Assembly: GCA_944322605.1 (NCBI GenBank)
Contig: CALUPD010000001.1
Location: 124,001 to 188,000, forward strand
DNA length: 64,000 bases
Direction of reading: 5' to 3'
From: an uncultured Bacteroidales bacterium
Lineage (GTDB): Bacteria > Bacteroidota > Bacteroidia > Bacteroidales > UBA932
A program made the position numbers and the translations under genes. The notes beneath the pieces were generated by a model that saw only the letters and a list, made by a program, of their open reading frames with translations, had not been told where the DNA came from and did no database searches. This document shows, piece after piece, positions 3,632 to 57,971 of this stretch (the first letter of the stretch is position 1; every line of letters begins with the position of its first letter).

Positions 3632-5044
3632 TCAAAAGCATGTCGTCTTCCATGGAACCGATGCCGTTCCTGTCTCCCAAACAGGATTTTTGCCCGGGCC
3701 TGTCTTGCGTTTTTCCCTGATTATGTAAATCATGGAGCCTATGAAGGCCATGCAGCATGCGGTCCCTATGCAGGTGCTCATCCCGTTATAGAATGTGAGC
3801 CAGTCGATTCCGGTAGCGTGCAGTTCCTTGAACAGCAGCAGGGCCAATGTGCCGGCGTATCCGAAAAAATCTATCGTTACAATGAAAAATCCTACGTTCC
3901 CTTTTATGCGGAAGCATGCGATGAACCTTTCGAAAAATATGGTCTGGAAGCTCAGGTATGCGATGTCGAGGCATACGCTTTGGAGCAGAAGCCATATTCC
4001 GGCCGGAAGCGCGAGGCTGTGGTAATTAGCCCCGATAAGGGCGAGAACGCACATTCCCGCTGTCGAAAGGGCAAGCAGGGAGCAAAGGACCTTCGCGTGG
4101 TTGTTGGAAAATGCCAGTATTGCGAATATTCCAAGCATCAACAATGTCGCTATGCTGTCTGTTTGCGCGAATACCCATGACGATACCGTATCTACATCGA
4201 TTATCCTGACGATGAAGTCTTCCTTTATGTCGCGCTGGACCGTAAGGAGCAGGTTCGCGGCGAATAGCATCGTCAACAGGGGCATGAACCTTTTGAACAG
4301 TTCCATCCTTCCTCGCTTGTCGAGGGAGACCCTTTCCGAGCGTGACGCCATGTCCGATGCCGTAGGCTTCGGCAGCCTTGTCAGTATCCATCCCGCAAGG
4401 CATAGCAGCGGGAATGCGACGGCCCCTATGAGGGCCGGCATCCAGAATTCGCTTACGTGCAGTTCGTTTATGGTGTAAAGCCCTAAGGATTTAGCGATTC
4501 CTGAACTTAGGGCCATGCTTGTTCCCATTATGCTGGCAAGCATGTCCGTCGTGCGCCGTCCTTCAAGAAAACTGAAAATCACTCCCCACATGCACCCTAA
4601 TGACAATCCGTTGAAAAACAGCGCGGCTATATTGTACGGCAGCGGAAGGATTCCGAATGCGATCAGGGATATTTCGGACATTGCGGCGGATCCTATTATG
4701 AATTTAAGCCTTCCTTCGGGCTTAAGTTCGGATATGAATTTTATTCCGAGCAGTTTGGATGCCGCGTATCCTATGAGCTGGATTATGCTTACGGCGACCT
4801 TGTAGTCCATTCCCCATGCCGTGAGGCCTTCGAATTCCGCAGCGGTGAACGGTTTTCTCAATGCGTACACCAAGGAGTAGGACAGCAGCGCGGTTCCTCC
4901 TGCCCATAGTATGAACAGCCAGTCCGGCAAGGTGCGCTTGCCGGCGGCTTGGTTTGCCCTTTCTGCGGGCGGATTCGGATTAATAGATGCCGTGCATGCG
5001 TTTATGCCATGGCTCGTTTCTGTTTTATGGAAAATATCGCGCAT
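3632..5044 (-). CDS. DUF5690 membrane protein, candidate AEP transporter
   Basis: A 470-residue polytopic membrane protein of the DUF5690 type with about 11-12 hydrophobic segments starting near residue 42. Residues 60-66 (YALRKPF) in the first helix resemble the conserved YxxRKxF of organophosphate:phosphate antiporters such as GlpT and UhpT, so an MFS/OPA-like fold is plausible. It is the first gene of the operon, 56 bases upstream of phnX. No other inner-membrane carrier is encoded in the cassette. I therefore infer import of 2-aminoethylphosphonate or a related phosphonate, possibly in exchange for phosphate. Transport itself is not shown by the sequence. The C-terminal tail (residues 445-470) is Lys/Thr-rich and cytoplasmic by charge. 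Confidence 0.7.
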   Translation of the reverse strand: MRDIFHKTETSHGINACTASINPNPPAERANQAAGKRTLPDWLFILWAGGTALLSYSLVYALRKPFTAAEFEGLTAWGMDYKVAVSIIQLIGYAASKLLGIKFISELKPEGRLKFIIGSAAMSEISLIAFGILPLPYNIAALFFNGLSLGCMWGVIFSFLEGRRTTDMLASIMGTSMALSSGIAKSLGLYTINELHVSEFWMPALIGAVAFPLLCLAGWILTRLPKPTASDMASRSERVSLDKRGRMELFKRFMPLLTMLFAANLLLTVQRDIKEDFIVRIIDVDTVSSWVFAQTDSIATLLMLGIFAILAFSNNHAKVLCSLLALSTAGMCVLALIGANYHSLALPAGIWLLLQSVCLDIAYLSFQTIFFERFIACFRIKGNVGFFIVTIDFFGYAGTLALLLFKELHATGIDWLTFYNGMSTCIGTACCMAFIGSMIYIIREKRKTGPGKNPVWETGTASVPWKTTCF

Positions 5045-5070
5045 AGTCGTTTTCTTTTTCGATTACGGCG

Positions 5071-5078
5071 CAAATATA
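5071..5078 (-). promoter_or_regulatory. Bacteroidota -7 box for the phosphonate operon
   Basis: Read on the minus strand this is TATATTTG, a perfect match to the Bacteroidota sigma-ABfr -7 consensus TAnnTTTG. It lies 27-34 bases upstream of the DUF5690 start codon. No clear -33 TTTG at the usual spacing was found. Confidence 0.5.
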
Positions 5079-5308
5079 TTTTCGCCTTTTCCGGCGAAAA
5101 ATGAATTTTGATTTGGAAATTTTTAATAAATATTCATAAACCAAAGCGTTACAGAAATGAAATGCGGATTAACAAAAACGCAACAGTTTTGTAACTCCGT
5201 TATGGAATGGCGGCATGATTTATTCATTAATTTTACTTTCCGGTTTAACAGGCCATGCGTTTGCAATGCCTTTTGGCTCAGGCGCCGGCTTTTCAGAAGT
5301 TTTTCCAT

Positions 5309-6220
5309 ATGAAAGAATTGAAGCAGATATATGATCGGATTTCGTTTTTAAGGAACAGCGGAGTGAAGATGAAAGACATAGCGGAGGCGATCGGCTTTTC
5401 GCCGAGCATGCTGTCTTCAATCTATTCGACAGTGCTGCCTTCGTATTTCAAGAATGTCTCGATGGGAGAGAATGAGGAAGAAGCCCTCGATCATGCCCTT
5501 GTGTGGGTCAATAACGTGTCCAAGAAGAAATTGGTCTCCGCTCTGCCGTCCATCATGAGCACGTTGGCGGCCATGGATGACGGCAGGGGATTCGGCATGG
5601 GGGCGGATGCCGGGAATTCATTCTTGTCCGCCGTGGGACACGGGATGGCGGAAGCCGTCAGGTTAGTTTCGCCTTTTTGCGGGGCTTATATGAGTTACAG
5701 CATTTCTTCAAATTGCGCAAAAATGAAGATGGAGCCTTATCTTATATCCTTGTCGGAAGACGGAACATATGCGGAAGCCTTGCATAAAAGCGCTTACGGC
5801 GTAGTCCATCGCGGTACTGTCATGATGAACGGGATGAGCCATATTTACATATGCTTCAACGAGAATCCGGGAATGCAGCTTTCCCTGTTTTACATATGCC
5901 TGAAAATCCCGATGTATGACAATCCCCCATTTTTGCGCGGGCTCTACATGTGCCTTGACTATAATTCGAATCCTGTTGCAAGAAGGATACTGCTTGTGAA
6001 AATGCAAGGCGGGGACGCGGCCGGGCTTTTCAAGGACATGCACGGCGGAATGAAGGAGGGCGGGGAGCTTGACGGCATCGAACGCAAGTACTACGAGTAT
6101 GCATGCATGGAGAATGACAGCCTGAGGCTTTGCAACATCCCTTCCCCGCAGATGACTGCTGACGACCTTGCTGCCGAAAAGGAAATGCTTGAATCAGGCC
6201 GCATAAAATTTGGATGCTAA
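5309..6220 (+). CDS. HTH-domain protein, possible regulator
   Basis: A 303-residue protein if begun at the ATG at 5309 (MKELKQIYDRIS); an in-frame ATG at 5255 would add 18 residues without conserved look. Residues 1-45 form a helix-turn-helix of XRE style (NSGVKMKDIAEAIGFSPSMLS). The remaining ~250 residues are a soluble domain with several aromatic/Met-rich strands (YLISLSEDGTYAEAL, IYICFNENPGMQLSLFYICLKIPMY) that I do not recognise. It is transcribed away from the phosphonate operon across a 264-base interval, the usual place for a regulator, and precedes a MATE exporter by 25 bases. A regulatory role in either direction is inference. Confidence 0.6.
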   Translation: MKELKQIYDRISFLRNSGVKMKDIAEAIGFSPSMLSSIYSTVLPSYFKNVSMGENEEEALDHALVWVNNVSKKKLVSALPSIMSTLAAMDDGRGFGMGADAGNSFLSAVGHGMAEAVRLVSPFCGAYMSYSISSNCAKMKMEPYLISLSEDGTYAEALHKSAYGVVHRGTVMMNGMSHIYICFNENPGMQLSLFYICLKIPMYDNPPFLRGLYMCLDYNSNPVARRILLVKMQGGDAAGLFKDMHGGMKEGGELDGIERKYYEYACMENDSLRLCNIPSPQMTADDLAAEKEMLESGRIKFGC

Positions 6221-49999: not shown

Positions 50000-52012
50000 A
50001 TGTCAGAACTTACAGATTTTCAAAAAGAAATATTGGCCGGGATTCCCGATGTCCTTCCTCCTTTGAAACCGTATGACGAATCCGTCAACCACGCTCCGAA
50101 AAGAAAGGACATACTTTCTCCGGCAGAAAAGAAGCTTGCCTTGAGGAACGCCCTCAGGTACTTCGACCCGAAGCACCATGCGGCCCTTATCCCTGAATTC
50201 ATGGATGAACTGAAGAAATACGGGCGCATATACATGTACAGGCTCAGGCCGGATTATAAGATATATGCGCGTCCGATAGATGACTATCCTCACAAGTCCA
50301 GGAAGGCGGCTGCGATAATGATGATGATAAACAATAATCTCGACAACGCGGTAGCGCAGCATCCGCACGAGCTTATAACATACGGCGGAAACGGGGCAGT
50401 GTTCCAGAACTGGGCGCAGTACAGGCTTACGATGCAGCTTCTTGCGCAAATGACGGACAACCAGACTCTCGTGATGTATTCAGGACATCCTCTCGGACTG
50501 TTCCCTTCTCATGAAAACGCACCGAGGGTCATAGTCACCAACGGAATGGTCATCCCTAATTATTCCAAGCAGGACGACTGGGAACGTTTCAACGCGCTCG
50601 GTGTTTCCCAGTACGGGCAGATGACGGCAGGCTCGTACATGTACATAGGCCCGCAGGGCATCGTGCACGGAACTACCATAACCGTGCTTAACGCCGCAAG
50701 GATGCATTCGTCTGAAAACGGCTCGATAGGCGGGAAGCTGTTCGTTTCTTCCGGGCTTGGAGGAATGTCGGGGGCACAGCCTAAGGCGGCGGTGATAGCC
50801 GGCGTTGTAGGGGTGATCGCGGAAATAAACCCGAAAGCTGTCCATACGCGTTATTCGCAGGGCTGGGTCGACGAAGTATATACCTCCCTTGACGAACTCA
50901 TTCCGCGCATACGCAAGGCTGTTGCTGGCAAGGAAGCGGTTTCCCTTGCATATCAGGGCAACATAGTCGATTTGTGGGAAAGGCTCGTGGAAGAGGATAT
51001 GAAAGTGGACCTCGGTTCGGACCAGACTTCGCTTCATAATCCTTGGGCAGGCGGGTATTATCCTGCCGGGTTTACGTTCGAGCAGTCCAACGAAATGATG
51101 GCCAACGATCCTGAAAGGTTCAAGAAAGAAGTGCAGGCTTCGCTCAGAAGGCAGATAGCCGCGATAAACAAGCTTGCCGCGAAAGGCATGTATTTCTTCG
51201 ATTACGGCAACGCATTCCTTCTGGAATCTTCCCGCGCCGGCGCGGATGTCATGAAAGCCGACGGCTCGTTCAAATATCCTTCTTATGTTCAGGACATAAT
51301 GGGACCTATGTTCTTCGATTACGGCTTCGGGCCTTTCAGGTGGGTATGCTCTTCATGCGATCCTGAAGACCTTGCCAAGACGGACATGATAGCCACGGAA
51401 GTCCTTGAGGAAATCGCCAAGACTGCGCCGGCAGATATTATCGGCCAGCTGAACGACAATATACACTGGATAAAGGAAGCAGGCAAGAACCATCTTGTGG
51501 TAGGCTCGCAGGCCCGCATCCTTTATGCGGATTGCGAAGGCCGCACGAAGATCGCCCTCGCTTTCAACAAGGCCATAAGGGACGGCGTGCTTTCGGCGCC
51601 TGTTGTTCTCGGCCGCGACCATCACGACGTGTCAGGAACGGATTCGCCTTACAGGGAAACCTCGAATATCTATGACGGTTCGAGCTTTACGGCAGACATG
51701 GCCGTGCAGAATGTCATAGGCGACTCTTTCAGGGGGGCGACCTGGGTGTCTCTCCATAACGGCGGCGGCGTCGGCTGGGGAGAAGTCATAAACGGAGGCT
51801 TCGGAATGGTCATAGACGGAAGCGAACAGGCTGAAAGGAATATCAGGATGATGCTCCATTGGGACGTGAACAACGGAATCTCCCGCAGGAGCTGGGCCCG
51901 CAACAAAGGGGCGATGGATGCCATAAGGCGTGAAATGGAGCGTACTCCGGAACTCAAGGTGACAATGCCTAATCTCGTGGAGGATTCTTTGATAGAGTCT
52001 TTGGAATTTTAA
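50000..52012 (+). CDS. hutU: urocanate hydratase
   Basis: A 670-residue NAD-dependent hydratase converting urocanate to 4-imidazolone-5-propionate. Signatures: ITYGGNGAVFQNWAQYRL, TLVMYSGHPLGLFPS, VTNGMVIPNYS, SAGQ-like SSGLGGMSGAQPKAA, SLHNPWAGGYYPAG, and HNGGGVGWGEVINGGFGMVIDGS near the end. Proteobacterial HutU is about 555 residues; the extra ~100 residues here are in the N-terminal ~60 and internal parts and are characteristic of the Bacteroidota/animal-type long form. It lies 7 bases after ftcD and 11 before hutH. Confidence 0.96.
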   Translation: MSELTDFQKEILAGIPDVLPPLKPYDESVNHAPKRKDILSPAEKKLALRNALRYFDPKHHAALIPEFMDELKKYGRIYMYRLRPDYKIYARPIDDYPHKSRKAAAIMMMINNNLDNAVAQHPHELITYGGNGAVFQNWAQYRLTMQLLAQMTDNQTLVMYSGHPLGLFPSHENAPRVIVTNGMVIPNYSKQDDWERFNALGVSQYGQMTAGSYMYIGPQGIVHGTTITVLNAARMHSSENGSIGGKLFVSSGLGGMSGAQPKAAVIAGVVGVIAEINPKAVHTRYSQGWVDEVYTSLDELIPRIRKAVAGKEAVSLAYQGNIVDLWERLVEEDMKVDLGSDQTSLHNPWAGGYYPAGFTFEQSNEMMANDPERFKKEVQASLRRQIAAINKLAAKGMYFFDYGNAFLLESSRAGADVMKADGSFKYPSYVQDIMGPMFFDYGFGPFRWVCSSCDPEDLAKTDMIATEVLEEIAKTAPADIIGQLNDNIHWIKEAGKNHLVVGSQARILYADCEGRTKIALAFNKAIRDGVLSAPVVLGRDHHDVSGTDSPYRETSNIYDGSSFTADMAVQNVIGDSFRGATWVSLHNGGGVGWGEVINGGFGMVIDGSEQAERNIRMMLHWDVNNGISRRSWARNKGAMDAIRREMERTPELKVTMPNLVEDSLIESLEF

Positions 52013-52023
52013 ATTTTGCAAAC

Positions 52024-53511
52024 ATGGAAATTCATTACATATCATCAGAGAAGATAACCGTCGAACAGGTTGCCCGCATTATTGAGAGCGGAATGATGAT
52101 AGCTCTCAGCGAGGACGCGAAAAGAAGGGTCGTCGAATGCAGGGAATACCTCGACAGAAAAATCGAAACTTCGAAAGAACCCGTGTACGGGATTACTACA
52201 GGATTCGGTTCGTTGTGCAATGTCTCCATAGACAAGGATTCATTGTCCGATCTTCAAAGGAATCTCGTCATGTCGCATTCCTGCGGCATGGGAGACGAAG
52301 TCCCTGCCGAAATCGTAAGGTACATGCTCTTCCTTAAAATACAGTCTTTGTGCTATGGCTATTCGGGAGTGCAGCTCTCGACGGTGGAAAGGCTCGTCGA
52401 ATTCTTCAATAAGGGGATAGTTCCTGTGGTGTACCAGCAAGGCTCTCTCGGAGCTTCCGGGGACCTCGCTCCTCTTGCCAACATGTGCCTGCCTCTTCTT
52501 GGTTTGGGCGAAGCATGGCTTGACGGCGAAAGGATCACTGGAAAGGAACTCAACAGGCGAATGGGATGGGAGCCTGTAAGGCTTGCTTCCAAGGAAGGGC
52601 TCGCCTTGCTTAACGGCACACAGTTCATGTCCGCGTATTCCGTATGGAACCTCATACGCGCGAAGAGGCTTTCGGCATGGGCGGACAGGATCGCGGCAAT
52701 GAGCATAGACGCCTTCGACGGCAGGATAAGCCCGTTCCTCATGCCTATCCATACGATTAGGGCCCATAAAGGCCAGATCGATACGGCAAGGAACATATAT
52801 GAACTGCTTCAGGGCTCGGAAATAATATTAAGGCATAAGGAACACGTTCAGGACCCTTATTCTTTCAGATGCGTGCCGCAAGTGCACGGGGCCGTGAAGG
52901 ATACCATCGATCATGTCGAGAAAGTGGTTACAACGGAAATAAACAGCGCGACTGATAATCCTGTTGTCGTGCCGGAAGAAGACATGATCATTTCCGGCGG
53001 CAATTTCCACGGGGAACCTCTTGCCCTTGTCAACGATTTCCTTGCGATAGCATTGTCCGAACTTGCAAGCATCTCTCAGCAGAGGATGTACCAGCTTATT
53101 TCAGGAAAGAGGGGATTGCCTTCGTTCCTTGTAGCAAAGCCGGGGCTTAACAGCGGTTTCATGATACCTCAGTATGCGGCCGCTTCCATCGTAAGCCAGA
53201 ACAAGCAATATTCGACGCCGGCGTCGGTCGATTCGATAGAATCGTCACTCGGGCAGGAAGACCATGTCAGCATGGGAGCCAATGCCGCGACCAAATGCGC
53301 CAAGGTGGTTGTCAATGCATACGAAGTTCTCGGAATAGAACTTATGGCATCTACCCAGGCACTTGAATTCAGGAGGCCTTTGAAGAGTTCCCCTGCAATA
53401 GAAGACCTGTTTGCACGCTACAGGGAAGTGGTTCCTTTCGTCGATGTGGACAGGGTCATGTATTCGGACATGGCGAAATCGGTGGAATTCTTGAAAAAGA
53501 ACGATTTCTGA
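52024..53511 (+). CDS. hutH: histidine ammonia-lyase
   Basis: A 495-residue lyase converting histidine to urocanate and ammonia. Ala144-Ser145-Gly146 (GSLGASGDLAPLA) cyclise to the MIO electrophile. Tyr55 in VYGITTGFG is the catalytic base region, and the C-terminal SGRKGLPSFL-like segment (ISGKRGLPSFL), QYAAASIVSQNK and EDHVSMGANAATK are typical. Length is normal. It acts first in the pathway although it is third in the operon. Cytoplasmic. Confidence 0.96.
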   Translation: MEIHYISSEKITVEQVARIIESGMMIALSEDAKRRVVECREYLDRKIETSKEPVYGITTGFGSLCNVSIDKDSLSDLQRNLVMSHSCGMGDEVPAEIVRYMLFLKIQSLCYGYSGVQLSTVERLVEFFNKGIVPVVYQQGSLGASGDLAPLANMCLPLLGLGEAWLDGERITGKELNRRMGWEPVRLASKEGLALLNGTQFMSAYSVWNLIRAKRLSAWADRIAAMSIDAFDGRISPFLMPIHTIRAHKGQIDTARNIYELLQGSEIILRHKEHVQDPYSFRCVPQVHGAVKDTIDHVEKVVTTEINSATDNPVVVPEEDMIISGGNFHGEPLALVNDFLAIALSELASISQQRMYQLISGKRGLPSFLVAKPGLNSGFMIPQYAAASIVSQNKQYSTPASVDSIESSLGQEDHVSMGANAATKCAKVVVNAYEVLGIELMASTQALEFRRPLKSSPAIEDLFARYREVVPFVDVDRVMYSDMAKSVEFLKKNDF

Positions 53512-53527
53512 GAAATATTCATTACGG

Positions 53528-54811
53528 ATGAAGAAGATTTATAAAAATATCAAATCGCTGATGGGGGCATATGATGCCCCTGTCATGCGTTTGAAAGGGA
53601 AGGAAATGTCGGTCGTTCCGGTCATAGAGGATGCTTGGCTTTCAGTAGAAGACGGCAAGGTCACGGGATTCGGGCGGATGAAGGACATGCCTTCTTCTTT
53701 TTTTGAAAACAGCGCATGCGTGCCGGACCGGGACAGGGATCGCATAGACACGGAATCAGGAGTTTCCGTAGAAGACTTGTCGGGAAGGTTCGTCTTTCCG
53801 GCTTTTGCCGATTCGCATACCCACATAGTTTATGCCGGGAGCAGGGAAACCGAATACGAAGACAAGATAAAGGGTCTCTCGTATGTTGAAATCGCAAAGC
53901 GCGGAGGGGGAATCCTCAATTCGGCAGATCTCCTGCACAGGACTTCCGAGGAGGAACTTTATGAAACCGCAATGGAACGCCTGTACAAATGCGTTTCCGG
54001 CGGCACTGGCGCGATGGAAATAAAGAGCGGATACGGGCTTTCGACAGAGGACGAGCTGAAGATGCTTCGCGTGATAAGGCGGATGAAAGAGACGGCTCCG
54101 ATTGCGGTCAAGAGCAATTTCCTTGCTGCCCATGCTTTTCCGCGCAATTATTCGAACGATCATGACGGCTATGTGGACCTCATAGTGAACGAGATGATTC
54201 CTCTTGTCGCTTCCGAGGGCCTTGCCGATTTCATAGACGTGTTCTGCGATGAGGGCTTTTTCACAGTGGAGCAGACGGACAGGATGCTGGAAGCCGGCGC
54301 GAAATACGGCATGAGGCCGAAGATCCATGCGAACGAGCTGGCCCTTTCGGGAGGAATACAGGTCGGAGTGAAGCATAACGCGCTTTCCGTGGATCATCTC
54401 GAATATGTCGGCAAAGCCGAACGTGACGCATTGCGCGGCAGCGAGACCATGGCTACCGTGCTTCCGGGTGCTGCTTTCTTTTTAGGAATGCCGTACTCGC
54501 CTGCTAAAGAAATGATAGAAGACGGTCTGTCCGTGGCCCTTGCTTCGGATTATAATCCGGGTTCGTCTCCATCGGCGAGCATGAAGTTCGTTCTTTCCCT
54601 CGCCTCCATAATGATGAGGCTGACTCCTGCCGAGGCTCTCAATGCGGCAACCGTGAACGGGGCTTATGCAATGGGACTGGCAGGAAAATACGGCCAGATA
54701 TTGAAAGGAGAAAAAGCGAATTTCGTTATTACCAAGCCTATGCCGTCATTTGCATACTTCTCTTATTCATATACTGAAGATTTGATAGAGAAAGTAGTGG
54801 TGAATAAATAA
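53528..54811 (+). CDS. hutI: imidazolonepropionase
   Basis: A 427-residue amidohydrolase converting imidazolone propionate to N-formimino-glutamate. The metal site begins with His97-Thr-His99 (FADSHTHIVYAGSRETEYEDK); EIKSGYGLSTEDELKML, AAHAFPRNY and IHANELALSGGIQVG supply further ligands and substrate contacts, and ALASDYNPGSSPSASM closes the barrel. Length is slightly above the ~410 norm. It completes hutH-hutU-hutI; the next gene has its own promoter box. Confidence 0.96.
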   Translation: MKKIYKNIKSLMGAYDAPVMRLKGKEMSVVPVIEDAWLSVEDGKVTGFGRMKDMPSSFFENSACVPDRDRDRIDTESGVSVEDLSGRFVFPAFADSHTHIVYAGSRETEYEDKIKGLSYVEIAKRGGGILNSADLLHRTSEEELYETAMERLYKCVSGGTGAMEIKSGYGLSTEDELKMLRVIRRMKETAPIAVKSNFLAAHAFPRNYSNDHDGYVDLIVNEMIPLVASEGLADFIDVFCDEGFFTVEQTDRMLEAGAKYGMRPKIHANELALSGGIQVGVKHNALSVDHLEYVGKAERDALRGSETMATVLPGAAFFLGMPYSPAKEMIEDGLSVALASDYNPGSSPSASMKFVLSLASIMMRLTPAEALNAATVNGAYAMGLAGKYGQILKGEKANFVITKPMPSFAYFSYSYTEDLIEKVVVNK

Positions 54812-54815
54812 ATTG

Positions 54816-54823
54816 TATATTTG
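54816..54823 (+). promoter_or_regulatory. -7 box of the M6 protease gene
   Basis: TATATTTG matches TAnnTTTG, 30 bases before the ATG at 54854, just after the hutI stop. It suggests that the protease pair is a separate unit from the hut genes. Confidence 0.5.
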
Positions 54824-54853: not shown

Positions 54854-57496
54854 ATGAGAAAAATCCTATTGACGGCGGCTGCATTGCTGATGGCCATGAC
54901 TGCATTTGTCAATGCTGACGCGATGCCTGCCTATCCGAAAAGCGTGGATGTGCGCCAGGCTGACGGAACGTATATTACGGTCCGGTCATACGGCGATGAA
55001 TTTTACCATTACCGTACCACATCGGACGGATATCCTGTGGTAGAGGTGAAAGGCATCTATTACCATGCGAATGTTTCGAATGACGGAAAACTGGTTTCTA
55101 CCGGCGTGAGGGCGCATAACCCTGGCAGCAGGACATCCGATGAACAAAGCATGCTTTCCTTCAAGGCGAAAGGCGTTTCTTCGCAGATAGCGAAGAATGC
55201 CAGGATGACCCTGCTTCAAAACAGCAAAAACAAGATGAGGCTGCTCAGCGGTAACATGAACAGCGATTTCCCTACGACGGGAGAGGTCAAGTCTCTCGTG
55301 ATTCTCGTGGAATTCAGCGATGTTAGTTTCAGGCTCGACAATCCTAACCAAAAGTTCACCGACTTGTTGAACCAGGAAGGCTATAGCGAAAACGGAGCAA
55401 CAGGCAGCGCGAGGGATTATTATCTGGATAACTCGTATGATTCTTTCCAGCCTGAGTTCGTAGTCGTAGGTCCTGTGACGCTCGACCAGACATGCGAATA
55501 TTATGGCAACAACGACAGAGGATCGGACGCTTACGGCGCAGCTGAAATGATAGCGGACGCATGCCGCAAGGCCCATGACGAAGGCCTTGTCAATTTCTCT
55601 GAATACGATTATAACCATGACGGAAAGGTGGACAACGTGTTCGTGTTTTTCGCCGGTGTCAACGAGGCTGAACACGGCTCGGAAGATACGATATGGCCGC
55701 ACAGGTGGGTGTTGCAGGAAGACCTTGTTCTGGACGGGGTTACCATTTACGACTACGCCTGCACATCTGAGTTGAAAGGTTCCAATCCGTATGACATGAT
55801 AATGGCCGGCATAGGAAACTTCACTCATGAGTTCGCCCATGTTCTCGGCCTTCCTGACTTTTACGATACGGACAATGCAAACAGCGGCGGCACTACCGAC
55901 GGCGTGTACAATTATTCGTTGCTCGGCATAGGCTCTTATAATAATGAAAGCCGCACCCCTCCGTATCTCAGCGCGACGGAAAGGTATCTTCTCGGCTGGC
56001 TCGAACCAGAAGTCCTTGAATATACCGGAGAATACGCCCTTTCCCCTATACAGGAGGACAATAAGGCATATATGCTTGAAACAGGCAACGAAGGCGAGTT
56101 CTTCATGCTGGAAAACAGGCAGAATGAGGGGTGGGACGCCTATCTTCCGGGGCGAGGGCTTATGATATTCCATGTGGACAGGTCCCAGAACATAGTCAAC
56201 GGATACCCTGCCTTGAATAAGTGGTCTTTCTATGAAGCCAACGGAAACAGCGTGAACAACAACCCTGAACATATGTGTTACAGGATAGTTTCTTCTTTGG
56301 CAGGGGCAAATTCGGCAAGCACGTCTTTCATGCCGTATCCTGGCGACGGAGGCTTTACGGAATTCTCGAAAACCTCGAATCCGGCAAATACCGCATGGTC
56401 CGGCAAGAATATCGATGCCGAACTGTTCTCGATAAGGGAAGAAGGCAACATTGTATATTTCAGCGCGAAGACATCCAAGGAAAAACCTGTCGAACTGGAA
56501 GGCATCGAGCTTTCAGCAGACAGGACCGAGCTTATAATAAACGATACGCTGAAGATGAACGTGCTGTTCACTCCTTGGAATACTACCGAAAGGGAACTGA
56601 CATGGTATTCATCTAACAGTTCCGTGGCGGCAGTAGACACGGCAGGCGTAGTTACAGGTCTTTCAACAGGATCAGCAACCATAACTGCCAAATCGGCCGA
56701 TGGCAGCATATCAGCGGATTTCAGCCTGAATGTCGCAAGCGGCCAGCTCGTAAGGGGCAAGCTGACGGACAGCCGCAGTGCGAATGTCGTTGGTGCGGAA
56801 GTCACCATAACCATCGACGGTTCAGACTATACCGCGACTTCGGACAGGACCGGCATGGTTTCATTCGAGGGCATTCCTGCAGGTTCAGGCACTGTCACGA
56901 TAGTATCGGATGCATATCCTGAACAGAGCAAGGCTATCAACGTGATAGAAAACGCGAGCCTTTTCGAATACAGGGTGTTGAACGACGATGAGCTCAAGAT
57001 GGGATATTACCCTATCGAGCTGAACGCGGAACCGTATGAAAGCTCGGCATACGTGACATGGGAAAGCACGGATCCTGCCGTAAAGAAATGGATCGTCAAA
57101 TGGTATGAGGCGAATAACACATCTTCTGTGGAAACTGCCGAAACTGAAGAACCTAAATTCGATGTGACCGGCCTCAAGCAGGAAACCTATTATTATGTCG
57201 TGGTTTCTGAAATGACCGAAATCATCGAGGGTGATTCCGGAAGGGTATCTTTCGTTACTACAAAATCGGCAGGTTCGTTGTCACGCATCGTAATAGACAG
57301 GTCGTATGCTAAAGGGGAAACATTATTGCTCAAGGCTTCCAATTTGCCGGAAGGCGCGGAAATATCGTGGACGATCGACGACGCTCCTTATGCTTCAACG
57401 GAACTTGTGCTCAATAATTCGGAGTACAAAATCGAGCTGACCATAAAGACGGCCGACAATACCGAAATAATAACCAAATATTTGAAAGTGGAGTAA
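54854..57496 (+). CDS. Secreted M6-family metalloprotease with Ig-like and FN3-like domains
   Basis: 880 residues with a signal peptide (1-23, ADA-M). A propeptide-like region (~24-140) precedes the M6 (immune inhibitor A-like) catalytic domain: zinc motif HEFAHVLGLPD with His325, Glu326, His329 and Asp335. A Ca-binding-like loop (YDYNHDGKVDN, 251-261) precedes it. Residues ~555-630 resemble a BIG2 Ig-like domain (ELTWYSSNSSVAAVDTAGVVTGLSTGSATITA), ~635-710 a carboxypeptidase-regulatory-like domain, ~720-805 an FN3 domain, and the last ~70 another beta domain. No Por sorting domain is seen. The small lipoprotein gene follows after 6 bases. Confidence 0.88.
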   Translation: MRKILLTAAALLMAMTAFVNADAMPAYPKSVDVRQADGTYITVRSYGDEFYHYRTTSDGYPVVEVKGIYYHANVSNDGKLVSTGVRAHNPGSRTSDEQSMLSFKAKGVSSQIAKNARMTLLQNSKNKMRLLSGNMNSDFPTTGEVKSLVILVEFSDVSFRLDNPNQKFTDLLNQEGYSENGATGSARDYYLDNSYDSFQPEFVVVGPVTLDQTCEYYGNNDRGSDAYGAAEMIADACRKAHDEGLVNFSEYDYNHDGKVDNVFVFFAGVNEAEHGSEDTIWPHRWVLQEDLVLDGVTIYDYACTSELKGSNPYDMIMAGIGNFTHEFAHVLGLPDFYDTDNANSGGTTDGVYNYSLLGIGSYNNESRTPPYLSATERYLLGWLEPEVLEYTGEYALSPIQEDNKAYMLETGNEGEFFMLENRQNEGWDAYLPGRGLMIFHVDRSQNIVNGYPALNKWSFYEANGNSVNNNPEHMCYRIVSSLAGANSASTSFMPYPGDGGFTEFSKTSNPANTAWSGKNIDAELFSIREEGNIVYFSAKTSKEKPVELEGIELSADRTELIINDTLKMNVLFTPWNTTERELTWYSSNSSVAAVDTAGVVTGLSTGSATITAKSADGSISADFSLNVASGQLVRGKLTDSRSANVVGAEVTITIDGSDYTATSDRTGMVSFEGIPAGSGTVTIVSDAYPEQSKAINVIENASLFEYRVLNDDELKMGYYPIELNAEPYESSAYVTWESTDPAVKKWIVKWYEANNTSSVETAETEEPKFDVTGLKQETYYYVVVSEMTEIIEGDSGRVSFVTTKSAGSLSRIVIDRSYAKGETLLLKASNLPEGAEISWTIDDAPYASTELVLNNSEYKIELTIKTADNTEIITKYLKVE

Positions 57497-57502
57497 TTTG
57501 AT

Positions 57503-57919
57503 ATGAAAAAGTACATAATAGCATCTGTAGTCATGGCGTTGGCCGTCCTGTCGTCCGGTTGCAAGAAATCGGAGACGATGCCAATGGAACAGCAAAATTT
57601 CATGATGAACAGCAATTACGGCCTTTATATGGAAGGGATGCAGTCCATGGCTTATGACAAGTACGCTCATCAGCTTGTACGCAACGAGGCTGGAACTTCT
57701 TTCCGTATCCAGTCAGACGACCTGAAGCAGTATGTGTCATGCTCGTTTTCTTCAAGGCCTTCTGCCGAAGGGGAAGAAATAACGGTAGGGTATTCTACCG
57801 GCGGGCTCGGCCTGCTTTCAAGCTATAGCGGAACATTCAATGTCGTAAAGATTTCCGATACGATGGTGTGGCTTTGGGACAAGCAGAACAAGAACGGCAT
57901 CATAGCTTATGTCAAGTAG
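57503..57919 (+). CDS. Small lipoprotein coupled to the M6 protease
   Basis: 138 residues; lipobox LSSGC (Cys20). The mature part of ~118 residues has alternating strands (TSFRIQSDDLKQYVSCSFSSRP, EEITVGYSTGGLGLLSSYSGTFNVVKI, TMVWLWDKQNKNGIIAYVK), so a small beta-sandwich or barrel is likely. I recognise no named family. It starts 6 bases after the protease stop and shares its terminator, so co-expression is nearly certain. In Bacteroidales secreted proteases are sometimes paired with lipoprotein inhibitors; that role here is only a hypothesis. It could also be a chaperone or an unrelated surface protein. Confidence 0.8.
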   Translation: MKKYIIASVVMALAVLSSGCKKSETMPMEQQNFMMNSNYGLYMEGMQSMAYDKYAHQLVRNEAGTSFRIQSDDLKQYVSCSFSSRPSAEGEEITVGYSTGGLGLLSSYSGTFNVVKISDTMVWLWDKQNKNGIIAYVK

Positions 57920-57943
57920 CATAAGAGCAATAATATGAAATCG

Positions 57944-57971
57944 GGGCTGTGCCACATGGCACGGCCCTTTT
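57944..57971 (+). terminator. Terminator of the M6 protease/lipoprotein unit
   Basis: GGGCTGTGCC pairs with GGCACGGCCC (one G-U) around a four-base ACAT loop, followed by TTTT. It starts 25 bases after the lipoprotein stop. Confidence 0.85.

Follow-up and report, generated by a model that had tools for sequence, protein, structure and literature searches.

Why does a gene for a small lipoprotein of no recognised family lie directly behind the gene for a large secreted protease in an uncultured Bacteroidales bacterium? We analysed a window of 64 000 nucleotides from this organism (GCA_944322605.1, contig CALUPD010000001.1, positions 124,001 to 188,000 of the forward strand); all coordinates below refer to this window. 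A first-pass annotation, made from the sequence alone, had noticed an 880-residue M6 metalloprotease, a 6-base gap, a 138-residue lipoprotein and one shared terminator. It proposed that the small protein may restrain or fold the protease, citing the lipoprotein inhibitors proposed for C10 proteases. Our analysis suggests that the lipoprotein (LP) probably grips the tail domain of the protease, and that this pairing is kept in many gut Bacteroidales which lack the secretion machine (T9SS) used by their relatives for such enzymes.

The observation itself was confirmed. The M6 gene occupies 54854–57496 on the plus strand (880 aa, stop codon TAA), and is followed by a gap of 6 nt (57497–57502) and by the LP gene at 57503–57919 (138 aa), which is in frame with M6. 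LP has the lipobox LSSGC with the lipid-bearing Cys-20 at 57560–57562. A terminator-like hairpin with 11 pairs is located at 57943–57968. It has the longest stem of the five sites found, but shuffled sequences give 8.0 sites, and thus the scan alone proves nothing. Three genes that look, on inspection by eye, like histidine-use genes (urocanase, histidine ammonia-lyase and imidazolonepropionase; 50000–54811) end 42 nt before the protease on the same strand. The sequence TATATTTG at 54816–54823 fits the Bacteroidetes −7 promoter motif TAnnTTTG, so the pair may have its own promoter.

The protease carries a signal peptide which appears non-lipidated by eye, followed by a propeptide region and the M6 catalytic domain (residues 149–440, 55298–56173). 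The latter matches Peptidase_M6 with 64.9 bits (cut-off 22) and TIGR03296 with 192.7 bits (cut-off 110.8). The zinc motif HEFAHVLGLPDFYD (residues 325–338, 55826–55867) contains the HExxH form HEFAH at residues 325–329; His-325, Glu-326 and His-329 are invariant in 17 partnered M6 proteases. Further downstream are a Big_2 Ig-like domain (residues 550–618, 56501–56707), a CarboxypepD_reg domain (residues 633–699, 56750–56950), an fn3-like domain below the Pfam cut-off (residues 729–798, 57038–57247) and a terminal Ig-like module of about 78 residues, which we refer to as CTD (residues 803–880, 57260–57493). LP has no Pfam match at E ≤ 1, and its NCBIfam matches are noise far below cut-off.

To check whether the pair is conserved, we searched related genomes with LP. 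This search identified 17 relatives in 16 other genomes of the family at 23–33% identity. All lie beside an M6 gene on the same strand. In 16 cases LP is downstream, with a spacing of −35 to +26 nt; in the remaining locus (L034) LP comes first and the spacing is 6 nt. An additional hit in a genome of another family (G046) has no M6 gene on its 12-kb contig. This hit and those in three further genomes (G207, G275 and G180) matched the first LP profile weakly or only over the signal peptide, and were rejected as they do not match the profile without it. A profile of 18 LPs hits 252 of 398 genomes of the family, which is a lower bound because only ten candidates per genome were scored and longer LP proteins can be missed. 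In the order, a broader profile hits 9 of 295 genomes. Five of these are outside the family, and all five have a CTD-bearing M6 next door. The genome containing the window has one CTD protein at E ≤ 1, the M6 protease, and one LP, plus one LP match with E 0.02. Its three C10 proteases gave no CTD hit. Among five loci from the nearest named records, gut MAGs labelled Tidjanibacter sp., Bacteroides sp. and Bacteroidales bacterium UBA7009, three have CTD and LP, while one locus (L302) has a short flank.

LP turned out to be a portable C-terminal domain. Upstream of other M6 genes are longer lipoproteins whose last 110 or so residues are an LP domain. It is preceded by BACON repeats (loci L073, L077, L080, L082 and L086, also L070 and L088; L081 below cut-off) or by a fimbrillin-like part (L076 and L122). 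In 62 non-redundant copies the LP domain ends 0–14 residues from the C-terminus. The CTD lies at, or within 18 residues of, the C-terminus of the protease.

Which part of the protease does LP accompany? Of 128 distinct LP domains in all DNA examined, 125 have a CTD-bearing product encoded within 400 nt on the same strand. Of the other three, two have an M6 gene cut by a contig end and one LP is itself at a contig end. Orthologues of LP occurring alone, which had been named beforehand as a refuting case, were therefore not found where the flanks allow a check. The reverse question was addressed with loci selected by catalytic domain. For the family, we picked 20 M6 loci from the best rows of a search, mostly genomes or copies without an LP by the first profile: 12 have CTD and LP, five have neither and three could not be evaluated. 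For the order (35 loci), 39 M6 genes have neither and three could not be evaluated. Together, 12 genes have both, 44 have neither and none is mixed (Fisher p 1.8e-12, not corrected for ancestry; the loci L074/L075 and L076/L078 are near copies). Among 30 C10 loci, two (L156 and L168) have both CTD and LP and 28 have neither within 1.5 kb. Four C10 loci found through LP also have the CTD (L120, L121, L122 and L125, the last being the same gene as L168). One domain family is thus paired with a metalloprotease and a cysteine protease whose shared part is the tail. Only one CTD partner is neither M6 nor C10: an exported protein of 546 residues (positions 4502–6142 of locus L119), with an LP gene downstream and no Pfam, NCBIfam or PDB match.

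Flanks of 1.5 kb are too short to show the end of long neighbours, and 20 of the 30 C10 loci were retrieved again. This revealed a second class of lipoproteins. None of the 24 CTD-less C10 genes counted has an LP, while 22 have a neighbouring lipoprotein which ends in another conserved domain, PKD-like and with a WGDG motif, and which contains BACON repeats in the two cases scanned. Eighteen of these C10 proteases share a tail related to T9SS tails (hhalign probability 96.9) and unrelated to the CTD (0.8); the WGDG domain is unrelated to LP (1.1). Tail class and partner class go together inside one catalytic family. As the class-2 profiles were built from these loci, their 17 of 18 pairing is partly by construction, and only the absence of LP is independent.

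These data bear on two rival explanations. That the linkage is only an operon of unrelated envelope genes would fit the co-directional and often overlapping genes. It is very unlikely in view of both gene orders, the absence of mixed cases among 56 evaluable M6 genes and the two tail classes with two partner classes. The second rival is that LP blocks the active site of its own protease at the envelope. Gene arrangement and lipid anchor are the same as for the potempins of KLIKK proteases (PMC7296668) and for the staphostatin-like Bfi/Bti lipoproteins proposed as inhibitors of C10 proteases (PMC3462683). In addition, three partnered M6 proteases (L025, L030 and L032) lack the propeptide match, so another brake would be useful. 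However, inhibition by itself does not predict that the partner follows the tail, and does not explain why CTD-less M6 and C10 enzymes have no LP. Most partnered M6 proteases keep a propeptide and the C10 proteases keep an I69 prodomain, and the long spacers in many LP proteins are left unexplained. We consider inhibition unlikely relative to docking but not excluded, and the two precedents keep it a serious rival.

We then asked whether the system is connected with T9SS. The T9SS component SprA was found in 19 of 34 relatives. In the family it is absent from 15 of 21 genomes and present in six (G007, G008, G009, G013, G019 and G020). LP was found in 12 of these 21 genomes, 11 with the family profile and one (G010) separately, and SprA is absent from all 12. 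Of the other nine, six have SprA and three (G001, G012 and G017) have neither (p 0.0015); the five LP-bearing genomes outside the family are not part of this count. The genome containing the window (95.9% complete) has no SprA_N match, SprA being the only component searched. The T9SS sorting domain TIGR04183 has no match in the M6 protease of the window at E ≤ 1, and the CTD shows no profile similarity to T9SS tails (hhalign probability 0.4). The idea that CTD-less M6 proteases always have T9SS tails failed: 14 of 25 do at cut-off (three of five in a first set, 10 of 10 in a set picked for this purpose and one of 10 in a third). Two of the 14 (L085 and L087) come from a genus whose sampled member G013 has SprA. 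We read the pattern as replacement of the T9SS tail after T9SS loss. However, T9SS loss, LP and CTD share a phylogeny, so the counts are not independent; one shared loss would make them dependent.

LP from Cys-20 onwards was predicted by AlphaFold with pLDDT 94.7 and pTM 0.86 as a short helix and nine strands, the barrel domain covering residues 28–138 (57584–57916). Foldseek and VIA comparisons gave no significant relative: the best matches are the lipocalin-like BT_0869 (3hty, E 0.035) and YceI-like and streptavidin-like barrels at Z below 5 (best Z 4.5). A PDB sequence search gave nothing below E 0.18. No potempin was among the top matches of these searches and no staphostatin among the structural ones, which excludes neither. 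With caution, we call the predicted fold a small up-and-down barrel. Such barrels occur among potempins and lipocalin-like staphostatins, and the fold resembles known inhibitor classes in outline, which is in line with the inhibitor reading. When CTD and LP were joined into one chain through the stop codon between the genes, the model reached pLDDT 89.0 and pTM 0.84 with residues 85–99 disordered; we would expect a pTM of about 0.53–0.59 if their relative placement were undefined. Judged from these scores without coordinates or a control fusion, and with the catalytic domain left out, the model supports CTD–LP contact but does not exclude other contacts.

Co-variation was analysed by Mantel tests, which are not corrected for the species tree. 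Over 75 non-redundant triplets, LP distances follow the CTD (r 0.58) more than the longer catalytic domain (0.41), with partial values of 0.47 and 0.13. Because CTD and LP genes touch when LP is downstream, the set was split. With LP upstream, and thus the CTD at the far end (n = 22), LP tracks the CTD given the catalytic domain (partial r 0.48, p 0.002) but not the reverse (0.06, p 0.27). With LP downstream (n = 64), LP tracks the catalytic domain and the CTD equally (0.376 and 0.373), and the 100 residues before the CTD do better (0.57 against 0.33). The result is mixed in the arrangement of the window and clear in the other. The co-variation of downstream LPs with catalytic and middle regions would fit a further possibility, that LP docks on the CTD and also inhibits or chaperones the catalytic domain (dock plus brake, or a secretion chaperone). 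We regard this as unlikely, as direct evidence is lacking and the C10 partners do not share a catalytic domain with M6.

In our view, held with moderate confidence, LP is an outer-membrane lipoprotein which binds the protease through the CTD and so keeps the enzyme at the cell envelope, most likely on the surface. The sequence data show that CTD-bearing M6 and C10 proteases and LP-domain lipoproteins occur as adjacent gene pairs, that the partner class follows the tail class and not the catalytic family, and that the system is found in genomes without SprA where this was checked. The packing of CTD and LP barrel is a prediction, while binding, location, surface exposure and any inhibition are matters of inference. 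In this model the protease would cross the inner membrane by its signal peptide, its CTD would be caught by lipid-anchored LP, and the complex would stay at the envelope, perhaps exposed. In a lineage that lost T9SS, such a tail would replace the T9SS tail as the means of anchoring and perhaps of reaching the surface; the BACON or fimbrillin-like segments between lipid and LP domain would be spacers. The interpretation of the first-pass annotation is thus partly supported: protease and lipoprotein are a conserved functional pair, but the proposal that the small protein restrains or folds the protease is not supported as stated.

A more far-reaching reading is possible but tentative: after losing T9SS, a lineage of gut Bacteroidales rebuilt protease anchoring as a set of matched tail/receptor pairs. 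Class 1 would be the Ig-like CTD with barrel lipoproteins, and class 2 a leftover T9SS-like tail on C10 proteases with BACON lipoproteins ending in a PKD-like domain. Tails and receptors would be swappable between catalytic families, a lipoprotein-based stand-in for T9SS. A tail-specific lipoprotein dock would give an answer to how Bacteroidales without T9SS place non-lipidated proteases at their surface, would name a domain that no library searched here recognises, and would give handles for displaying enzymes on gut commensals. If LP turns out to inhibit, it would be a protease inhibitor keyed to a non-catalytic module.

Protease–lipoprotein pairs as such are known. A partner keyed to a non-catalytic tail in a lineage without SprA is not described as far as our literature search, which reached few subscription papers, extends, and no paper on an M6–lipoprotein pair was found in it. 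Among known systems, the potempins of Tannerella forsythia are also small lipoproteins encoded next to secreted proteases of several catalytic families which share one C-terminal domain (PMC7296668). There, the shared domain is a T9SS tail in a T9SS organism and the lipoprotein is reported to inhibit the protease, while here the tail is not a T9SS tail and the partner class follows it. The Bfi/Bti proteins of Bacteroides are small exported proteins, some of them lipoproteins, encoded a few bp from C10 genes and proposed to be active-site inhibitors (PMC3462683). For LP, pairing with C10 proteases by catalytic type was not found, as its partners are mainly M6. The T9SS type A sorting domain (TIGR04183) is a beta domain of about 75 residues at the very C-terminus of M6 proteases, a position in which the CTD resembles it without sequence or profile similarity. 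Finally, cohesin–dockerin docking also pairs a terminal module of an enzyme with an envelope receptor domain. The domains are unrelated, and here one receptor gene is paired with one enzyme gene.
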